A DNA stretch of 37,566 bases from Bacillota bacterium (GTDB lineage: Bacteria; Bacillota; Clostridia; Christensenellales; QALW01). How positions within the stretch are numbered: position 1 is the stretch's first letter; every line of letters starts with the position of its first letter. The notes under the pieces are model-generated. The model ran no database searches and was not told the origin of the DNA. It saw nothing but the letters and a program-made list of their open reading frames with translations. The stretch covers positions 1 through 37,566 of the forward strand of contig JAQXIQ010000017.1 in the NCBI GenBank assembly GCA_029007865.1. The letters run 5' to 3'. The translations under genes were made by a program, and so were the position numbers. Below, piece after piece: positions 1-22,267 of this stretch.

Positions 1-119
1 CCCTCCGTCAGCAAAACCGATCTTCTAACCCGTAACTCTTTCGCTTTTTCGGTCTCACATCATTGACAAATGAACAGTCTTTTAGGCGCAGCGTCCGCGC
101 AAGACGGCACAAAACCCGG

Positions 120-989
120 CTAGAGCCCGTCCATAAAGGAAAACAGCCTGCGCAGGGGCGGAGAATCGTCCCGCTCGAAAAATATTCCGGCCACAAGATT
201 GCAGTGGAAGCGGTGGCGCTCACGCACCTGAAACATTTCCGCCATGCCGGGGTTAAGCCGGTTGACCCTGTCTGTAAAACGGCGTTGGTTTTCTATATTG
301 CTTATGGGGTCAAACTCGGAATGCAGGCACAGCACCCGCGTGTCTTCCCCTCCGCGCACCATGTTTATAGGCGCCGCCGACGCGCGGTCAAAGCCGGGCC
401 GGAACAGGTTATCAAAAAGCTTTAGCGTGGCATCGGGATATTCGCAGTCAAAATCCATTATACCGCCCAGCGACGCAAGCCCCGCAAACCGTTCCCTGTC
501 CACGCCATAGCGCCGCTGCAGCTCACGGTCATACACCAACACTCCGCCCAGATGTCCGCCCGCCGAGGAGCCTATTACGATGACCCTGTCCGTATCAAAA
601 CCAAGGTTTTTTACATATTCGTCCGCCGCATTGAAGCCCGCAAAAACGTCCTCCGCCTGAGCCGGATAACGGTAATGCGGAGCATGGCGGTAGCCTATGG
701 AAACCGTAGGATAGCCGCGCAGAGAAAAGCGCCTGCAGATAAACTCAAACTCCGCAGGGGAATAGGACGACCAGCCTCCGGCGTGCAGATATACCACAAG
801 GCGGTTCTTTACCGGTGAATCGGGCTTAAAGTACAAAAAGTACTGATGCTGCTCCTTACCGTACCGTATCTTTTCGGAATGAATAAGCGGCGCGGTGAGC
901 ATGATCCCGGCTACCATGGGTATGGCTCTTAATCTGTCCTCCCGCTGTCTTGCAAGCACTATTTTTTTATTGTTATTGCTGTCTTTCAT
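120..989 (-). CDS. alpha/beta hydrolase (esterase/lipase-like)
   Basis: HAGGW oxyanion-hole motif, GSSAGG nucleophile elbow, late Asp (EFDPIS) and His (RHRFHC). ORF runs to 1073, but ATG at 989 has AGCGGAG six nt upstream. Confidence 0.85.
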   Translation of the reverse strand: MKDSNNNKKIVLARQREDRLRAIPMVAGIMLTAPLIHSEKIRYGKEQHQYFLYFKPDSPVKNRLVVYLHAGGWSSYSPAEFEFICRRFSLRGYPTVSIGYRHAPHYRYPAQAEDVFAGFNAADEYVKNLGFDTDRVIVIGSSAGGHLGGVLVYDRELQRRYGVDRERFAGLASLGGIMDFDCEYPDATLKLFDNLFRPGFDRASAAPINMVRGGEDTRVLCLHSEFDPISNIENQRRFTDRVNRLNPGMAEMFQVRERHRFHCNLVAGIFFERDDSPPLRRLFSFMDGL

Positions 990-1220: not shown

Positions 1221-2033
1221 TTATCCTCTTTTCCTGGCAACAACCAGCGCTCCGCAGCCGGTTATGGCGGCAAGCGCATAAGCTATTACGGAGAAGTCCG
1301 CGGTATCCCGCTCGCCCTCCACAAGCTCGTCGGTAAGCTCAAGGGAATCAAACACGAACGCTATATAGTTGTCGCCCTTATTATCATAGAGACGGACATC
1401 CAGTTCGATATTCTCAACCTCGGAAAGAGAGCCAAGACCGGTTTTGCCCCAGCCCGTCAGAGCCGCCAGCTTGGAATTATCAAGCTCAAAGTAAACCCAG
1501 CCCTTGAAGCCTGCGCTTACCACCGCAGAGAAGTTTCTCTCACCGGCTGCTCCGCCCGAAGGATCAAAATATCCCACAGGAGTCAGAGCATTGCCGTCCT
1601 TGTCATAGAAGCCCAGCTCGTCAGCCGCGGCATTGACATACTTATTGCCTCCGTCGGCACGGAAATTGAGCGCAATGGTGATATCCGATTTTTCCGAAAC
1701 GTTCTCAAACCAGAAGCGCAGATATTTTTTGCTGCCGCAGTTTTCCCTGAACGCGGTTATAGCGTCGGTATCCCCGATAACTGCGGTAAACACAGTAGTG
1801 GTGGTAACCGTCATGGAAAGCTTAAGGGCGTTTCCGTTCACTCCCGTTACGGACGAATACTCCGGGATAGCCGTTCCGTAAGTGGCATTCATAAAGTCCT
1901 CGGTACTGCCGATATAGGTCTTGGCGTTCTCGGCGCTGTCAAAGGTCAGCAGCTCGGTATTTGCCGCAAATGCAGAAACCGAAAAGCAGCACGCCAGAAC
2001 AAGCGCTGCAGCTATGCAAACGATCTTTTTCAT
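1221..2033 (-). CDS. Secreted/cell-surface protein with signal peptide and C-terminal TM plus basic tail
   Basis: MKKIVCIAAALVLACCFSVSAFA signal peptide; C-terminus RDTADFSVIAYALAAITGCGALVVARKRG. Confidence 0.8.
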   Translation of the reverse strand: MKKIVCIAAALVLACCFSVSAFAANTELLTFDSAENAKTYIGSTEDFMNATYGTAIPEYSSVTGVNGNALKLSMTVTTTTVFTAVIGDTDAITAFRENCGSKKYLRFWFENVSEKSDITIALNFRADGGNKYVNAAADELGFYDKDGNALTPVGYFDPSGGAAGERNFSAVVSAGFKGWVYFELDNSKLAALTGWGKTGLGSLSEVENIELDVRLYDNKGDNYIAFVFDSLELTDELVEGERDTADFSVIAYALAAITGCGALVVARKRG

Positions 2034-2245: not shown

Positions 2246-2434
2246 TAAATCCGGTTTGTAAACTATATGGCGCGGATGGTTTTATCCGGATACGCTCCGG
2301 ATATATAAAAAGCGCGTATTTCAAGCGCACATTTATAACTCTTAACAGCACAAAACTCATATTCCCGGCCTGCACTGCGCCGTACTGCTACCCGCCTTTT
2401 TATACCCGTTCCGGGGAAAACCGCCGCATATTTC

Positions 2435-2515
2435 ATTTCATTCACTGTTTGAAAAAACACCGCGCATTTCACTTACTGTTTGAAAAAAACATGGCTGATT
2501 TCATTACTGTTCACG
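2435..2515. repeat. Three imperfect direct repeats, about 31-bp period (ATTTCAttcACTGTTTGAAAAAA)
   Basis: ATTTCA at 2435, 2466, 2498; ACTGTT at 2444, 2475, 2506. Third copy truncated. Confidence 0.75.
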
Positions 2516-2537
2516 CCGTAATGCGACATTTTTGCAC

Positions 2538-2585
2538 TTGTGACGGCCGTGCTTTTATGCTATAATTTTTATGTTTCCAGGAGGT
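2538..2585 (+). promoter_or_regulatory. Predicted sigma-70 type promoter and RBS of addB
   Basis: TTGTGA (2538-2543), 17-bp spacer, TATAAT (2561-2566), AGGAGGT (2579-2585) before ATG 2590. Confidence 0.75.
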
Positions 2586-2589
2586 CACA

Positions 2590-5500
2590 ATGCTTACTGT
2601 AATACATTCGCGAGTACATGACGGGAAAACCACGGAGATAATCAACCGCATCGGAGAACTTATGCGGCAGGGGAAAAGGTCGGTGCTTATCGTGCCCGAC
2701 CAGGTGACTTATGCCGCAGAAAGGGATATCTGCTCTCAGCTGGGCATCTCCGGCTTTTCCCTCTGTCAGGTAATGTCCTTTAACCGCTTCTGCGAGGCGG
2801 TGCTGCGCAGCGCCGGCAAAAAATGTCCGCGCAGGCTTACGGATGCGGGGCGCATGATGCTGCTGGAGCGCGCGGTTATATTAAAACGCGATTCCCTGCG
2901 CATCTATGGCTCGGTATGCCGCCGCAGCGGCTTTGCCCAGCGCATGGAACGCATGCTGGCGCTGCTGAAAAGCTGCCGCATATCGCCGGACTCTCTGCTG
3001 GAAATGTGCAGCAGGCTGCCCGCCTCCCTCCTTAAGGAAAAGCTGTCCGACACCGCGGAGCTCTACCGCTGCTATCAGGAATTAACCGGGGCGGACTACT
3101 GCGACAACAACGACCTTTTCGGTCTGGCCGCAGACTGCGGCCAAAGCCCCTTGCTTAAAGATTGCCGTATATTTATCGACGGCTTTGATTCCCTTACGGG
3201 GCAGATGCTCTGGCTGATTCAGAAGCTGCTGCGGAGCTGCGACATTACGGTATCGCTTTCCCTGGACGACAGCGCGCCGTGGCTTTACTCCATGCAAAGG
3301 CGCACCATGGACGGACTTGTGCAGGCCGCGGCAAACTCCGGCTCCGTATTAAGATGCATTGAGCTGCCGCATATAAACCGCGGCAACAGCTTTGACGCCC
3401 TGCACGGCCTTTACGGCAAAGCGGAAAGCGCCGCCGCAGGCGGAGGAATAGACTTTTTCCAGGCCCCAGACACAGAAGCCGAGATACGGCACATAGCCTT
3501 TGATATACGCCAGAAGCTAAAGCGCGGAGCCCGCTACCGCGATTTTGCCGTGGCCTGCTGCGACACCTCCCTTATAAGCTCCGTGGAACGGATATTTGCC
3601 CAGTATTCACTGGCGGTCTTCTGCGATACCGCCCGTCCCATGCAGGCTCAGCCCGCGGTACAGCTGCTTATGAGCGCACTGGAGGCCTGCCGTGCAGACA
3701 ATTCCCAACGTGAAATGACGGAATTTCTGTGCAACTATCTGTGTCCTCTGCCGGTCGACGTTTCGGAACGGCTGCGCGTGCTGATTTCCTCTCTTGGACT
3801 GACCAATTACGAGCTTATTGAGCAGTGCAGCCGCGGCAGCGAGGAGACCCGGGCATTTCTGGCCGGGATTTCCGGGGAGCTCCTGCCCCTTCGGGTACTG
3901 CGCAAAGCTCTGCGCGGCTGCAAAAGCGCACGGGACTTTATAACCGCCGTATGGGATTTTATACAGGCCGTCGGGCTTTCCGGGCGTGTGGACAAGCTAA
4001 TAAGCCGCTGCATTGAAAACGGACTGCTCGCCGAAGCCGACGAGTATAAGCAGGTATGGGACAACCTTACGCAACAGTTAGAGCAGTTGGACATGCTGCT
4101 TAAGGACTGTCCCGATTGCGACCCGGATATGCTCATTTCCATGCTGGGACGCGCCTTTGAAAGCCAAAGCTGCTTTGTTCTCCCCTCCACAGTGGACTGC
4201 ATAACCGTGGGCGACCCTGCCAGAAGCCGTTTTTCCGGCATAAAGGAGCTTTATGTCATAGGCGCGGCAGACCCGTATTTCCCCGTATCGGACAGCGGAG
4301 AGGGTCTGCTCAGCCCGCAGGAGCTCTCCCGCATTAACCGAAACGAAAAGGTACTTTCCCCGGATACCGAGGACGCATCCGTCCGCAATACCTTTCTGCT
4401 TTTTTCCATGCTGCTGGCGCCCTCCGTGCTGCACCTGAGCTATGCGTTAAAGAAGGGACGGACTCAGCAGCAGCCCGGCAGCCTGCTGGAGCGTGTGCTT
4501 GCCTCCGTCCCGGTAGAAAGGCGCGATGCAGACACGCAGCAGGAAATGCTGGCCTGTCCCATGGGCGCGCTGGAAATACTGGCCTCCTCGGAACGGCTCA
4601 CCGCAAGCCAGTGTGCCGCAATGCAGGCTCTTGAAATGCTGCGGCCCGGTCTGCTGGCCTCCGTGACCTCTCCCGTTTCCGACCGCGTAACCGACGCCCG
4701 CGCTCTCTACGGCAGCATACCCATAAGCATGTCCAGGCTGGAAACGCAGGCGGAATGTCCTCTTAAAAACCTGCTTACGGGGGGCCTGCGGATGAACGAA
4801 GATACCGATTACCAGAGCAACGCCATAGATATAGGCAATATTATGCACGAAGCCCTGGAGCATTCCGTCCCAGAGCTTATGCAGGCAGGCGCGGCAGGCC
4901 GGAATGCCGAGCTGGCGCGCGGCATTGTGGAAAAAAACCTTTACGCAGCCGCCCGCAGCACCCACGACGGGGTTATGCTGCATACCGCCAGGGCACGGCT
5001 CCTTTGTGCGCGTCTGAACAAGAGCGTAACCGCAGCCTGCCGCAGTATAATGGAGGATCTTGACACATTTAAGCCCTTTGCCTTTGAGGTAAGCTTCGGC
5101 CGCGGAAAATACCCAGCGATAGAGCTGGACACCCGCGCCGGAAGAGTGCGCCTGCAGGGAAAGATAGACCGCGTGGACAAAAGCGCGGACGGCCAAGCGC
5201 TGCGGATAGTGGACTATAAATCCAGCAAGCATTCCATAACCGCGAAAAGCGTAGAAAGAGGCACTACCCTGCAGCTGCCCCTGTACATGATTGCCATGGA
5301 AAAGGCTACCGGCGCCCGGGGCGCGGCAATGTATTACCAGAACTGCTTCGGCACCGGCGTAAGCTACAGCGGACTTAGCTGCGAGGATTCCCCCGCCCCG
5401 GACAAAAATGCACTGACGCAGGCGGAATTCCGCGCCGTGCTGGACAGCGCCCAGGACACGGCGGCGCGTCTTGCGGCGGACATGCTGCAGGGCCGGACAG

Positions 5501-5721: not shown

Positions 5722-8700
5722 ATGAAATTTTCACCTCAGCAGCAGGCGGCAATAGACAAACGCGGCGTCTCCGTAATGCTGGGCGCTGCAGCCGGAAGCG
5801 GAAAAACCACCGTTATGGTAAGCCGTATAATGAAGATGCTCACAGACGGCGACTGCACATTGGATCAGCTGCTGGTACTCACCTTTACCCGCGCCGCGGC
5901 TTCCAATATGCGCACCAAGCTGGAAAAGGAGCTTTCCGCCGCTCTGGCAGCCCATCCCGGCGACCCGCGCCTGGCCCGTGCCGCACGCGATCTGCCCTGC
6001 GCACAGATATCGACATTTGACTCCTTCTGCACCACTCTGGTGCGCAGATATTTCTTTTTGCTGGATATTCACGCCGACGCACGGATGCTGGATGAAAACG
6101 AACAGGAGGAGTTGGAAAACTCCGTTATGTGTTCCGTGCTGGAAAACGCCTCCGCGATATGGGAACGCGGGGAGTTTGACGGCCTTGAGCTGCTGTACGA
6201 CCTGTTTTCCTCCGGCAAAAACGATGCCGAACTGATGCAGGCGGTGCTGAGCATATACAGGCACTGTCAGCTTTATCCCCGCCCCGAGGAACGGCTGGAG
6301 CAGCTTTGCGGGGATGTGCGCGTGGACGATTTTGTGCTCAGTGATCTGGAGCTGCTTAAAAAGCGCTGCAGCGCGGCCCGTGACATACTGCAGAGATTTG
6401 CAAGCCTTGCCGGGCTTCTCTCTGCGGAAAAGGAGCGCATAAAGGCTCTGGACCTTGTTAAAAGCGACGGGCTTGTGCTGGAGCAGATCATGTCGGCCGG
6501 CAGCATAGACAGCCTGAGGAAAATAGAATTCACAAGAATGCCCACCATAAAGGAGGAACCCCTCCATACCGAGCTTAAAGCATTGCGCGAGCTGCTTAAG
6601 AATACGCTGAAAATATCCGAAACGGTCAAGTCCTACTCCGAGCTTGACCGGGAGCAGCTGGACACCGCGGGCCGGGTGCTGGGCGCCCTGGGCAGGCTCG
6701 TCAGGATGTATTCTGGGGAATTGCGCGATGAATGCCTCAGCCGCAATGTGCTGACCTTTACCCTGGCACAACGCCTTGCCATGGAGCTGACGGAACAGGA
6801 AACCGTGTTGGAGGAGCTTCGCGGCGATTACCGGTATATCTTTATCGACGAGGACCAGGACAGCAACCGCCTGCAGCGCTGCATGACGGAACGCCTGGCC
6901 AACTCCGATGAGAGCAATCTCTTTATGGTGGGAGACATCAAGCAAAGCATATACCGCTTCCGCAATGCCGAGCCCGGAATGTTTCTGGCCAAAACAAACG
7001 ATTACCGCGATGCGCCGGAGGGCTCGCCCTGCTGTGTACTGCGGCTCAACAATAACTTTCGTTCCCATAAGAATATCCTGGAATGCATCAACCTGATCTT
7101 CCGGCGAAATATGCGCTCGGATTTTTTTGAGCTGGACTACAATTCCGACGAGGAACTGCGCGCGCCGGAGGACGCCTGCTGGCAGACCGACGACAGGTAT
7201 GCGCTGCCCACCCGCGTGGTGCTGCTTAAAAACGATACCGGTGCCCTTCAGGATGAGCTGGACCGCGCGGAAGCCAGAGAGGCCGCCGCGCTGTGCCTGG
7301 AATTCCTGGGCTCCCCAATTGCGGAAAACGGGGGCACACGCCCTACGCGCTTTGGGGATATGGTGGTGCTGCACCGAAACGCCAACAAAAAAAGCGCCGT
7401 TTTTGCAGAAGAGTTCCGGCGTGCCGGCATCCCGTTTTCCGCCTCAAGCGAAAGCTCGCCTCTTGAGAGCTATGAGGTATCCTGCGTGCTGGATCTTTTG
7501 CGGCTTCTGGACAACCGGCGCAACGATTTTGCTCTCTTTTCCGCGATGCGGCTGTACGGCTTTACCCTGGACGACATAATAAGCATCCGCAGCGCCGATA
7601 TAAAAAGCAGCTTCTGTGACTGCATACTTAACAGCCGGAACACAAAGGTGACGGATTTCCTTACCGAGCTTGAGCGCCTGAGATTCCTGTGCTCCTGCCG
7701 CCCCGTGTGGAAGCTGCTGTGGGAAATATACGATTCCACCGGGTTCTTCGCCCGGTGTGCCGCTCTGCCCGGAGGCCGGGAACGCACCGACAACCTGCGC
7801 GCACTTGCCGCACTGGCGGAAAAATACTGCTCCGGCGAAGGCATGAGCCTGCACGGCTTCATAAACCTTTGCTCCACCACCGGAAAGCGCGCACTCCCCG
7901 GAGACCCCCTGATAACCGGCGACAAGGTGCATATGCTCACCGTCCACAAAAGCAAGGGGCTGGAGTTTCCCATCGTTATCATGGCGGGCTGCGGCGATAA
8001 GCTGTTCAAGAACCCGTCAAAGGAGAAAATACGCATAAGCAGAGATTTGGGGATAACCTTTAAGGCAGGGCAGCAGGATGCGCCGCTGTGCCGCTGTCTG
8101 ACCGAGGCAGCAGACCGAAGGGAACGTTACTTTGAGCGTTCGGAGCAGCTTCGCAACCTGTATGTCGCCGCCACGCGCGCGGTAAACCGGCTTGTTTTTA
8201 CCGGCATATACACGCCCGGGCACTACGGGCTGGACGCCGTGCGCTTTGACGCCGAGCGCTGCTTTGATTTTATCCTGCCGCCTTTGCTTGACCATCCGGA
8301 CGGCGCGTCCCTTGCGCGGGAGCTGGATATTCTGCCTCAGCCGGGCGAGGCCTCGGGCCGCTGGGAATGGCAGCTGCTGCCCGTTTCCGGCATAGGGGAG
8401 GTAAAATATGTCCGTCCGGAGCAAAAGAGCGAGGCTTGCTCGCAGCAGGAGATACGGCAGGCCGCGGAGGACTTCCGCTTCAGCTACAAATACAGCCGCG
8501 CCGCCATGCTGCCCGGCAAAAAGAGCGCTTCCGACGCCGAAAAAAGCTATGAGCTTGCCGCCCCGGATTTTTCCGACGGCATATCCGCCGCCGGCATAGG
8601 CAGTGCGTATCATCTGCTGCTGGAACATACCGATTTCCGCCAAAGCGCGGCGCAGACCTGCAAAAAGCTCACTGACGGCGGGCTTCTGGATGAAAAAACC

Positions 8701-19864: not shown

Positions 19865-20040
19865 ACTTCCTCCTGCCGCAATGCAGTACAGATTTATCAG
19901 GGACTGCAGCCACGGTATGATTATACTATAATCCTGCTTGCTGCAACGCCCTTATCTGCACCGCGGCACATTTTCACCGTTTTCACCCGGGGCAGTCTGT
20001 TCCCATGCGCATCAAAACCCGTACATTCCGGAAGATAATG

Positions 20041-20090
20041 TGACGCAGCGTCATTTATCATTTGACATTTTTTCCTCATAATGTTATTCT
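20041..20090 (+). promoter_or_regulatory. XRE-gene promoter with upstream dyad
   Basis: Dyad TGACGC-a-GCGTCA (20041-20053); TTGACA (20062-20067), 17 bp, TATTCT (20085-20090). Confidence 0.7.
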
Positions 20091-20107: not shown

Positions 20108-20425
20108 ATGTTTCCGCAGCGACTAAGAGAATGCCGCAAGCAACGGGGACTTTCGCTCAAGGAACTGGCTACGGTATTCAATATGAGCCACTCTACACTT
20201 TCAAAATATGAAACCGGTACCCGCCGTCCTGATACGGAAATGCTTATAAAGCTTGCCGAATACTTCGGGGTTACAACGGATTATCTTTTAGGTATAAGCG
20301 ATTCCCCTTACGGACAACTGCTTGCCGTTCAGTATTCCGCCGGCAGACTGCCTCCCGAAGCCCAGCATGAGCTTGACAGCTATGTTGAATATCTTACGGA
20401 TAAGTACTGCCGGGATAAAAAATAA
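20108..20425 (+). CDS. XRE-family (HTH_3) transcriptional regulator
   Basis: LRECRKQRGLSLKELATVFNMSHSTLSKYETGTRRPDTEMLIKLAEYFGVTTDYLLG. Confidence 0.95.
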   Translation: MFPQRLRECRKQRGLSLKELATVFNMSHSTLSKYETGTRRPDTEMLIKLAEYFGVTTDYLLGISDSPYGQLLAVQYSAGRLPPEAQHELDSYVEYLTDKYCRDKK

Positions 20426-20484
20426 TCCTTAGTTCATGCTCACAGTCCTTTGATAAAAATTTACAATATTTGGTAATTTTTATG

Positions 20485-20538
20485 TTGCAAAATCTGTTTT
20501 CTTTTGGTATAGTATTATTACCCGGTACCAAAAGGAGG
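20485..20538 (+). promoter_or_regulatory. Promoter with candidate XRE operator
   Basis: TTGCAA (20485-20490), 17 bp, TATAGT (20508-20513); CTTTTGGTA (20501-20509)/TACCAAAAG (20526-20534), extra TTTGGTA at 20469-20475. Confidence 0.7.
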
Positions 20539-20552
20539 TTTGCAGTATAATC

Positions 20553-20873
20553 ATGTTGTTCCCACAGATTGCTTCTGAAGCGCAGAAGTACCACATTACC
20601 ATGGTAACAGAGCCGCTCCCGGACGGTGTTAACGGCCTGCTGCTGAGCAATAAAAACGGATGCGTAAGCATTGCGTCAGACAGGCTGTGCAATTACGGTC
20701 AGGAAGTTACTCACGCTTTGAATATCGGCTATTATGCTGCCATTCTCTCCGGTGCAGGTGACCGCCGTCAATTCGCCCACGACCGTGCATACCGTCTTCT
20801 GTTTTCCGATAGCAGCGATAAAACAGCGGCAGCAACGGCTTATTCCAGGCTTGCCGCGTCCCGTTCCGATTAG
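20553..20873 (+). CDS. Degenerate ImmA/IrrE-like protein lacking the zinc motif
   Basis: GLLLSNKNGCVSIASDRL...VTHALNIGYY...RRQFAHDRAYRLL resembles the ImmA/IrrE layout; no HEXXH; directly downstream of XRE. Confidence 0.55.
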   Translation: MLFPQIASEAQKYHITMVTEPLPDGVNGLLLSNKNGCVSIASDRLCNYGQEVTHALNIGYYAAILSGAGDRRQFAHDRAYRLLFSDSSDKTAAATAYSRLAASRSD

Positions 20874-20968: not shown

Positions 20969-22267
20969 ATGTTAACTTTCTTTAGACGCACAATACCTTT
21001 TATGCTTTCTCTACTGCTCTGCGCAGCACAATGCGGCTGCTCGATGCCCATCATTACCCCTTGGACAACCGCACTACACAGCAACAGTCCCTCATCTACG
21101 GTCTCCGTGTCCGGCACTTCAGGCTGCACGACGTTCCCCTCTTCATATGCTCCGGCAGGCTCTCCGACCGTTGAACACACATCATTTACGCCTTCAACCA
21201 TGCAACCCTCGCCGGAGCCCACCGCACCGCCTTCTGCCGGTCTGTCTCAGGCTCCCTCGCTTACTTTGGAACAGTATTTGTCAGGCATGACACCGGAAGA
21301 AAAAATCGGGCAGATGTTTCTGGCCTGCTGTCCCTCTTCAAAACAGATAAGTGATATAATGCAATACCGTCCCGGCGGATATCTGCTCTTTTCCCGTGAT
21401 TTTGCGGATAAAACAGCCGATGAAGTGCGCGCCGCGATACAGTCATACCAGGACGCATCAGTCATTCCCATGCTGATAGCCACGGATGAAGAGGGCGGCA
21501 CTGTAGTGCGGGTAAGCAAAAATCCCGCTCTTCGCAGCAGTCCTTTTGCGTCCCCGCAGGAACTATACGGTACGGGCGGGATACAGCTTGTACTGGAGGA
21601 CGCCGAAGAAAAATCCCGTCTTCTTAAATCGTTGGGTATAAATGTCAATATGGCTCCGGTTTGCGATGTCTCGGAAAATCCCGAGGATTACATCTTTAAG
21701 CGCACCTTGGGTAAAAACGCCGTTGAAACTGCGGAATATATCCGTCAAACCGTGAGCGTTATGGAGCAGCAGCAGATAGGCTCGGTACTTAAGCATTTTC
21801 CGGGCTACGGCAGCTGCGGCGACACTCATTCGGGGCTTGTTACAGATAACCGTCCTATGGAAACCTTCATGCAGAGCGACTTTCTGCCTTTCTCCGCGGG
21901 CATAGAATCCGGCAGCGGAGCGGTTTTGGTGTCCCACAATATTGTCTCCTGCATGGACCCTGACAATCCGGCCTCACTCTCGCCGGCAGTACACGACATA
22001 CTGCGCAATACTCTGGGGTTTGAGGGCGTGATTATTACGGACGAGCTGTCCATGGGCGCAATTGCGGGATACATCAGTCCGGAAGAGGCAGCCGTGAAAG
22101 CGGTTCTGGCAGGGAACAATCTTATATGCAGCTTTGATTACAGAAAACAGATTCCCGCTGTTATTGAGGCAGTAAAAAACGGAGAAATCCCCGTCTCCCT
22201 CGTTGATGACTCGGTCCGGCGCATTTTGCGTTGGAAAGCTTCCCTTGGGCTGATAGAATTAGGGTAG
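20969..22267 (+). CDS. Glycoside hydrolase family 3 lipoprotein (NagZ-like)
   Basis: Lipobox AQCGC; ATDEEGGTVVR, LKHFPGYGSCGDTHSGL, ITDELSMGAI. Confidence 0.93.
   Translation: MLTFFRRTIPFMLSLLLCAAQCGCSMPIITPWTTALHSNSPSSTVSVSGTSGCTTFPSSYAPAGSPTVEHTSFTPSTMQPSPEPTAPPSAGLSQAPSLTLEQYLSGMTPEEKIGQMFLACCPSSKQISDIMQYRPGGYLLFSRDFADKTADEVRAAIQSYQDASVIPMLIATDEEGGTVVRVSKNPALRSSPFASPQELYGTGGIQLVLEDAEEKSRLLKSLGINVNMAPVCDVSENPEDYIFKRTLGKNAVETAEYIRQTVSVMEQQQIGSVLKHFPGYGSCGDTHSGLVTDNRPMETFMQSDFLPFSAGIESGSGAVLVSHNIVSCMDPDNPASLSPAVHDILRNTLGFEGVIITDELSMGAIAGYISPEEAAVKAVLAGNNLICSFDYRKQIPAVIEAVKNGEIPVSLVDDSVRRILRWKASLGLIELG

Follow-up and report, generated by a model that had tools for sequence, protein, structure and literature searches.

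The window analysed, a stretch of 37,566 nucleotides of contig JAQXIQ010000017.1 from a gut Clostridia genome, contains two adjacent genes on the forward strand, located at 20108-20425 (105 aa) and 20553-20873 (106 aa), both of which were confirmed as real ORFs. The first certainly encodes a regulator of the XRE/Cro-CI family, made up of a HTH domain and a conserved C-terminal tail (LPPEAQHELDSYVEYLTDKYC): it scores 72.2 bits against Pfam HTH_3 (PF01381; cut-off 23 bits, E 3.6e-20). The second, hereafter ORF2, does not contain a HEXXH motif and is a candidate non-proteolytic relative of the M78 (ImmA/IrrE) proteins.

Promoter-like sequences were detected upstream of both genes by a consensus scan. 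The one preceding the XRE gene, TTGACA-N17-TATTCT (20062-20090, forward strand), matches 10 of 12 consensus positions and carries TG before the second hexamer; TTGACA-N17-TATCCT is found at the same place in a relative of the same genus. Just upstream lies a palindromic element, GTGACGCAGCGTCAT (20040-20054), a candidate operator for the XRE protein, which aligns with GTGACGATCTGTCCT in the same-genus genome. The extended pattern GTGACG-N4-GTC-N-TTT, searched with zero mismatches, is present once per genome in both genomes, at the XRE gene. When both genomes were searched for a wider regulon under this candidate operator, exact matches occurred only at the XRE gene itself, a distribution which fits self-regulation only.

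ORF2 is preceded by a separate promoter-like sequence, TTGCAA-N17-TATAGT (20485-20513, forward strand), and by a ribosome-binding site, GGAGG (20534-20538, forward strand), 14 nt before its ATG. In the relative, TTGCAA-N17-TATATT was read by eye at 5921-5949 of the corresponding locus (L048), and GGAGG is found 12 nt before the ATG. A perfect 9-nt inverted repeat, CTTTTGGTA/TACCAAAAG (20501-20534), also a candidate operator, brackets the -10 region of ORF2 and the beginning of the ribosome-binding site. A different inverted repeat occupies the same place in the relative (L048, 5933-5967): the position is kept, the sequence is not.

Conservation of the gene pair

The same XRE-ORF2 pair was found in one same-genus genome, MAG RGIG6306 from sheep rectum (JAFXDC010000045.1); the assembly containing the window amounts to 2.0 Mb in 153 contigs. 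Gene order is common to both genomes, and in both the pair lies beside the same HAD phosphatase gene. Identity to the relative is 30-32% for ORF2, about 68-69% for XRE (G001) and 91% for the flanking HAD protein. In the window only, an additional gene coding for a GH3 N-terminal domain (20969-22267) is located between ORF2 and HAD; none of the family's other four genomes contains an equivalent gene, and a recent insertion is likely.

In two genomes of the sister genus, the HAD gene is present and no XRE/ORF2 pair lies beside it. At E 0.001, the 396 genomes of the order and the 391 genomes of the class that were searched yielded no further homologue of ORF2, and none was found in GTDB representatives, viral contigs or phages. 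The neighboring genes include addAB, phoH, ybeY, and those for a 7TM-HD protein, cytidine deaminase, Fe-hydrogenase, pyruvate:ferredoxin oxidoreductase and phosphoribosylpyrophosphate synthetase. No phage or conjugation genes are present among the neighbors tested, and the pair lies in ordinary chromosome, not in a prophage.

ORF2 diverges at a much higher rate than its neighbors, dN (NG86) being about 1.06 for ORF2, 0.23 for XRE and 0.08 for HAD; synonymous sites are saturated for ORF2 and XRE, and reach 2.66 for HAD. Such very fast divergence, together with an incomplete zinc site, a missing C-terminal domain and a C-terminal third which can barely be aligned between the two proteins, would fit the slow decay of what was once an ImmA/IrrE protease, now devoid of function. 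Several features speak for maintenance instead. The frame is open in both species despite the saturation of synonymous sites, and the promoter-like sequence and ribosome-binding site of ORF2 are held in position. Over the ungapped residues 1-62, differences at the three codon positions amount to 35, 26 and 43 (of 62), so that second positions, more conserved than third, are constrained. In addition, the blocks TEPLP.GV and THAL..G.Y are invariant in both proteins. Codon usage favours the frame of ORF2, one reverse frame being close (0.059 against 0.002). The simplest reading of these sequence comparisons is that ORF2 is a gene on which constraint is weak but real; late decay, leaving a functionless remnant, is considered rather unlikely.

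Similarity of ORF2 to M78 proteins

The original prediction described ORF2 as ImmA/IrrE-like. Profile-profile comparison and genomic context sustain this description, but the protein stays below every curated family threshold. Comparison with Pfam, PHROGs and NCBIfam revealed nothing beyond chance, and PF06114 (Peptidase_M78; curated cut-off 22 bits) gave no match at E up to 10. A sequence search of the PDB produced PurS as best match (E 0.07), which is not meaningful. The absence of family matches in three libraries, and of ORF2 homologues outside the genus, would be expected if ORF2 were an unrelated, genus-restricted small protein located downstream of XRE, its resemblance to M78 being due to chance. 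The same holds for the ORF2 of the relative, which, taken alone, is at chance level in profile tests against M78 and has no hmmsearch match.

Against a chance resemblance stand the results of profile comparisons based on the pair of ORF2 sequences. An alignment of M78 N-domains matches the pair with E 1.3e-4, collinearly from the N-terminus, the match starting at residue 3 on the ORF2 side and at residue 4 on the M78 side. The full-length M78 profile scores 25.0 against the pair, a value reached by none of 300 column shuffles. The helical C-terminal part of M78 profiles attracts XRE proteins, so that a null made up of random real ORFs is misleading, and the null was restricted to the N-domain. 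More generally, scores of XRE proteins against full-length M78 profiles, apparently arising through that helical part, inflate similarity to the partner, and the N-domain alone suits tests of this kind.

ORF2 scores 24.4 in the single-sequence version of the N-domain test. Only two of the other 584 ORFs exceed this value, one of them a true M78 protein and the other unrelated; ORF2 is thus near the top among about 583 non-M78 ORFs. A hmmsearch with the M78 N-domain model ranks it above several true mini-M78s (short M78 proteins of about 70 aa and up), yet with an E of only 0.076. Direct comparison by hhalign with four mini-M78s gave E 0.058, improving with deeper profiles; the profile match to the mini-M78s is a weaker one (E 0.0016-0.0038). 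The flanking pattern noted originally (GLLL...SI...RL; RRQFAHDRAYRLL) does fit the M78 layout, but a measurable signal is confined to the N-terminal ~45 residues.

Genomic context also argues against an unrelated protein: ORF2 directly follows the XRE gene, and two full-length relatives of this XRE lie near M78 genes. One (G050) aligns with the window XRE over residues 2-104 and has a M78 gene about 1.5 kb downstream, with two ORFs between; the other (G094) aligns over residues 2-102, with a M78 gene about 0.5 kb downstream. Clostridia and their phages very commonly carry XRE genes paired with M78 genes; besides the mini-M78s, the M78 proteins of such pairs include a phage type, about 150 aa long, with the motif AEE[LIV]GH.

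Structure prediction, proposed originally as a check of similarity to DUF955, gave a divided answer. When twelve M78 rows were added to the ORF2 alignment, AlphaFold produced a model with pLDDT 72, pTM 0.63 and a M78-like order of elements, but with the two-row ORF2 alignment pLDDT was 42, a failure which is in line with an unrelated protein. Even with the M78 rows, two of five models exceeded 65 and three stayed at 40-44; the good model may consequently be driven by the supplied rows, and indicates compatibility with the M78 fold, not proof of it. Foldseek comparison of this model with the PDB retrieved zincins (E 0.04-0.11), with PprI/IrrE and CapP among the best, and comparison with a viral library gave phage proteins of the IrrE-type metalloprotease class, from E 0.003, among its best matches; no match in either library reaches E 0.001. 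On balance, ORF2 is probably of M78 ancestry, an assignment made with some reserve, while an unrelated protein of the genus is regarded as the less probable, though by no means negligible, explanation.

The zinc site of ORF2

The lack of HEXXH in ORF2, noted originally, was borne out and extends to [HE]EXXH, which is not found in any register. It is carried by all 47 M78 proteins collected for comparison and by neither of the two ORF2 proteins. The motif is thus lost in all known copies of ORF2 (n=2), and damage to the window copy alone, envisaged originally as an objection, is not what was seen, since the loss is common to the only homologue found. With two sequences, a maintained non-proteolytic partner and a slowly decaying one cannot be told apart by this feature.

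The placement of THALNIGYY at the position of HEXXH, also proposed originally, agrees with both the HMMER alignment to the M78 N-domain model and one of the MAFFT alignments (A8), where EEIGH falls on LNIGY in the window and on LDLGM in the relative, but it is only one of several registers. In a second MAFFT alignment (A7), EEIGH falls on QEVTH in the window and ACLTH in the relative, which leaves E51 and H54 in the former and the His alone in the latter; in the extended hhalign alignment, of low confidence, most of the metal site falls in a gap. The Glu of the next helix, third zinc ligand, appears by eye as Arg in the window protein, in a region which is not confidently aligned. As judged from these alignments, the zinc site is incomplete in every register and in both proteins.

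The A7 register raises the question of whether ORF2 could be an active or metal-binding M78 variant with a non-standard site, formed by Glu51 and His54 of QEVTH. Clostridial relatives do use EEXXH instead of HEXXH, and the site of Listeria MpaR reads EELMH (PMC6872733). Such a variant is nevertheless considered very improbable: the relative reads ACLTH, so the Glu is not kept, no residue equivalent to the expected third-ligand Glu is seen by eye at the aligned place, and the motif common to all collected M78 proteins is missing from both ORF2 proteins. In MpaR, a His-to-Ala change at the EELMH site served as control for protease activity (PMC6872733); EEXXH thus counts as a working site, and its absence from ORF2 argues against proteolysis.

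A possible role of ORF2 and related systems

The reading put forward here, tentatively, is that of a chromosomal XRE regulator accompanied by a M78-derived, non-proteolytic partner under weak constraint, the two stemming from the XRE + ImmA/IrrE (M78) module. The XRE protein would probably repress its own promoter through the GTGACG-N4-GTC element, and perhaps ORF2 as well, by way of the inverted repeat which overlaps the promoter-like sequence of ORF2. ORF2 would be a shortened, fast-diverging M78-type protein. From the protease domain it may have kept the N-terminal layout of helix, strand, loop and strand; a complete zinc site and the helical domain at the C-terminus would have been lost. 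Since the site is incomplete, ORF2 should not cut XRE; most likely it would bind XRE, or its C-terminal tail, changing its activity without cleavage. Beyond two apparently expressed genes, every step of this scheme is one that we infer. A more elaborate version, in which a pair kept vertically at the genus level had lost the zinc site permanently, regulated XRE by binding alone and had originated as a mobile-element switch, later domesticated in the chromosome, is regarded as rather unlikely. A limited search of the open-access literature found no M78 protein that acts on its XRE without proteolysis.

The arrangement, an XRE-type gene followed by a small gene similar to the M78 N-domain, is that of ImmR/ImmA of ICEBs1 and of phage pairs formed by a CI-like repressor and a DUF955 protease (for example Listeria MpaR, PMC6872733), and as in these pairs the regulator has its own promoter with a candidate operator. 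Unlike its counterparts there, ORF2 is devoid of HEXXH/EEXXH and of the helical domain at the C-terminus, is preceded by a promoter-like sequence of its own, and is located in ordinary chromosome, not in a phage or a conjugative element. The adjacent XRE gene is present in both genomes; cleavage of the repressor would not be expected without the zinc site. ORF2 shares with mini-M78s (about 70 aa and longer, with HE[LIMV]XH, from clostridial genomes and viral contigs; L078, L087-L105) the size class, the place after XRE and, in its N-terminal half, the LP..V.G....DG..I layout; HEXXH is kept in these proteins and absent from ORF2. The logic of a repressor and its M78 partner is also that of DdrO/IrrE(PprI) and CapH/CapP (PMC10904395, PMC10233336), and the model predicted with M78 rows resembles PprI and CapP. 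IrrE(PprI) and CapP, however, cut their repressor and have further domains, whereas in ORF2 the zinc site is incomplete and those domains are missing.

Other XRE-M78 loci were observed in the course of the analysis. Near-identical mini-M78s (92% or more) follow XRE genes at three loci (L078, L081, L083), in a genome carrying three copies (G056) and in a viral contig. The XRE proteins of L081 and L078 differ in the N-terminal DNA-binding part and share the C-terminal tail, which suggests, from the sequences, that DNA-binding heads may have been exchanged and the partner-facing tail kept. Beside another XRE gene, a mini-M78 (L079, 1486-2094, reverse strand) is fused to a C-terminal domain resembling, by eye, a LexA/CI-type peptidase (S24).

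In both members of the genus, an intact XRE gene overlaps a M78 gene, in divergent orientation from a gene for a Y-family DNA polymerase (IMS, PF00817). In the genome of the window (L035, contig C66) the three genes lie at 2295-3779 (reverse strand), 3688-4170 and 4133-4699 (both forward), and the M78 site reads HEIGH; in the same-genus genome (L052) they lie at 3-815 (reverse), 980-1426 and 1366-1935 (both forward), with site HELGH. This polymerase-linked pair resembles a DNA-damage switch of the DdrO/IrrE kind which, in Clostridia, would control a translesion polymerase, and may be a more useful lead than XRE-ORF2.

The XRE-ORF2 pair probably represents a plausible if modest variation on a well-known switch, and not a new kind of system. 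If the proposed reading is true, a very common repressor/protease module can become a binding-only switch, and the pair would offer, on a small scale, a natural way to find out whether binding accounts for part of the regulation by M78 proteins.
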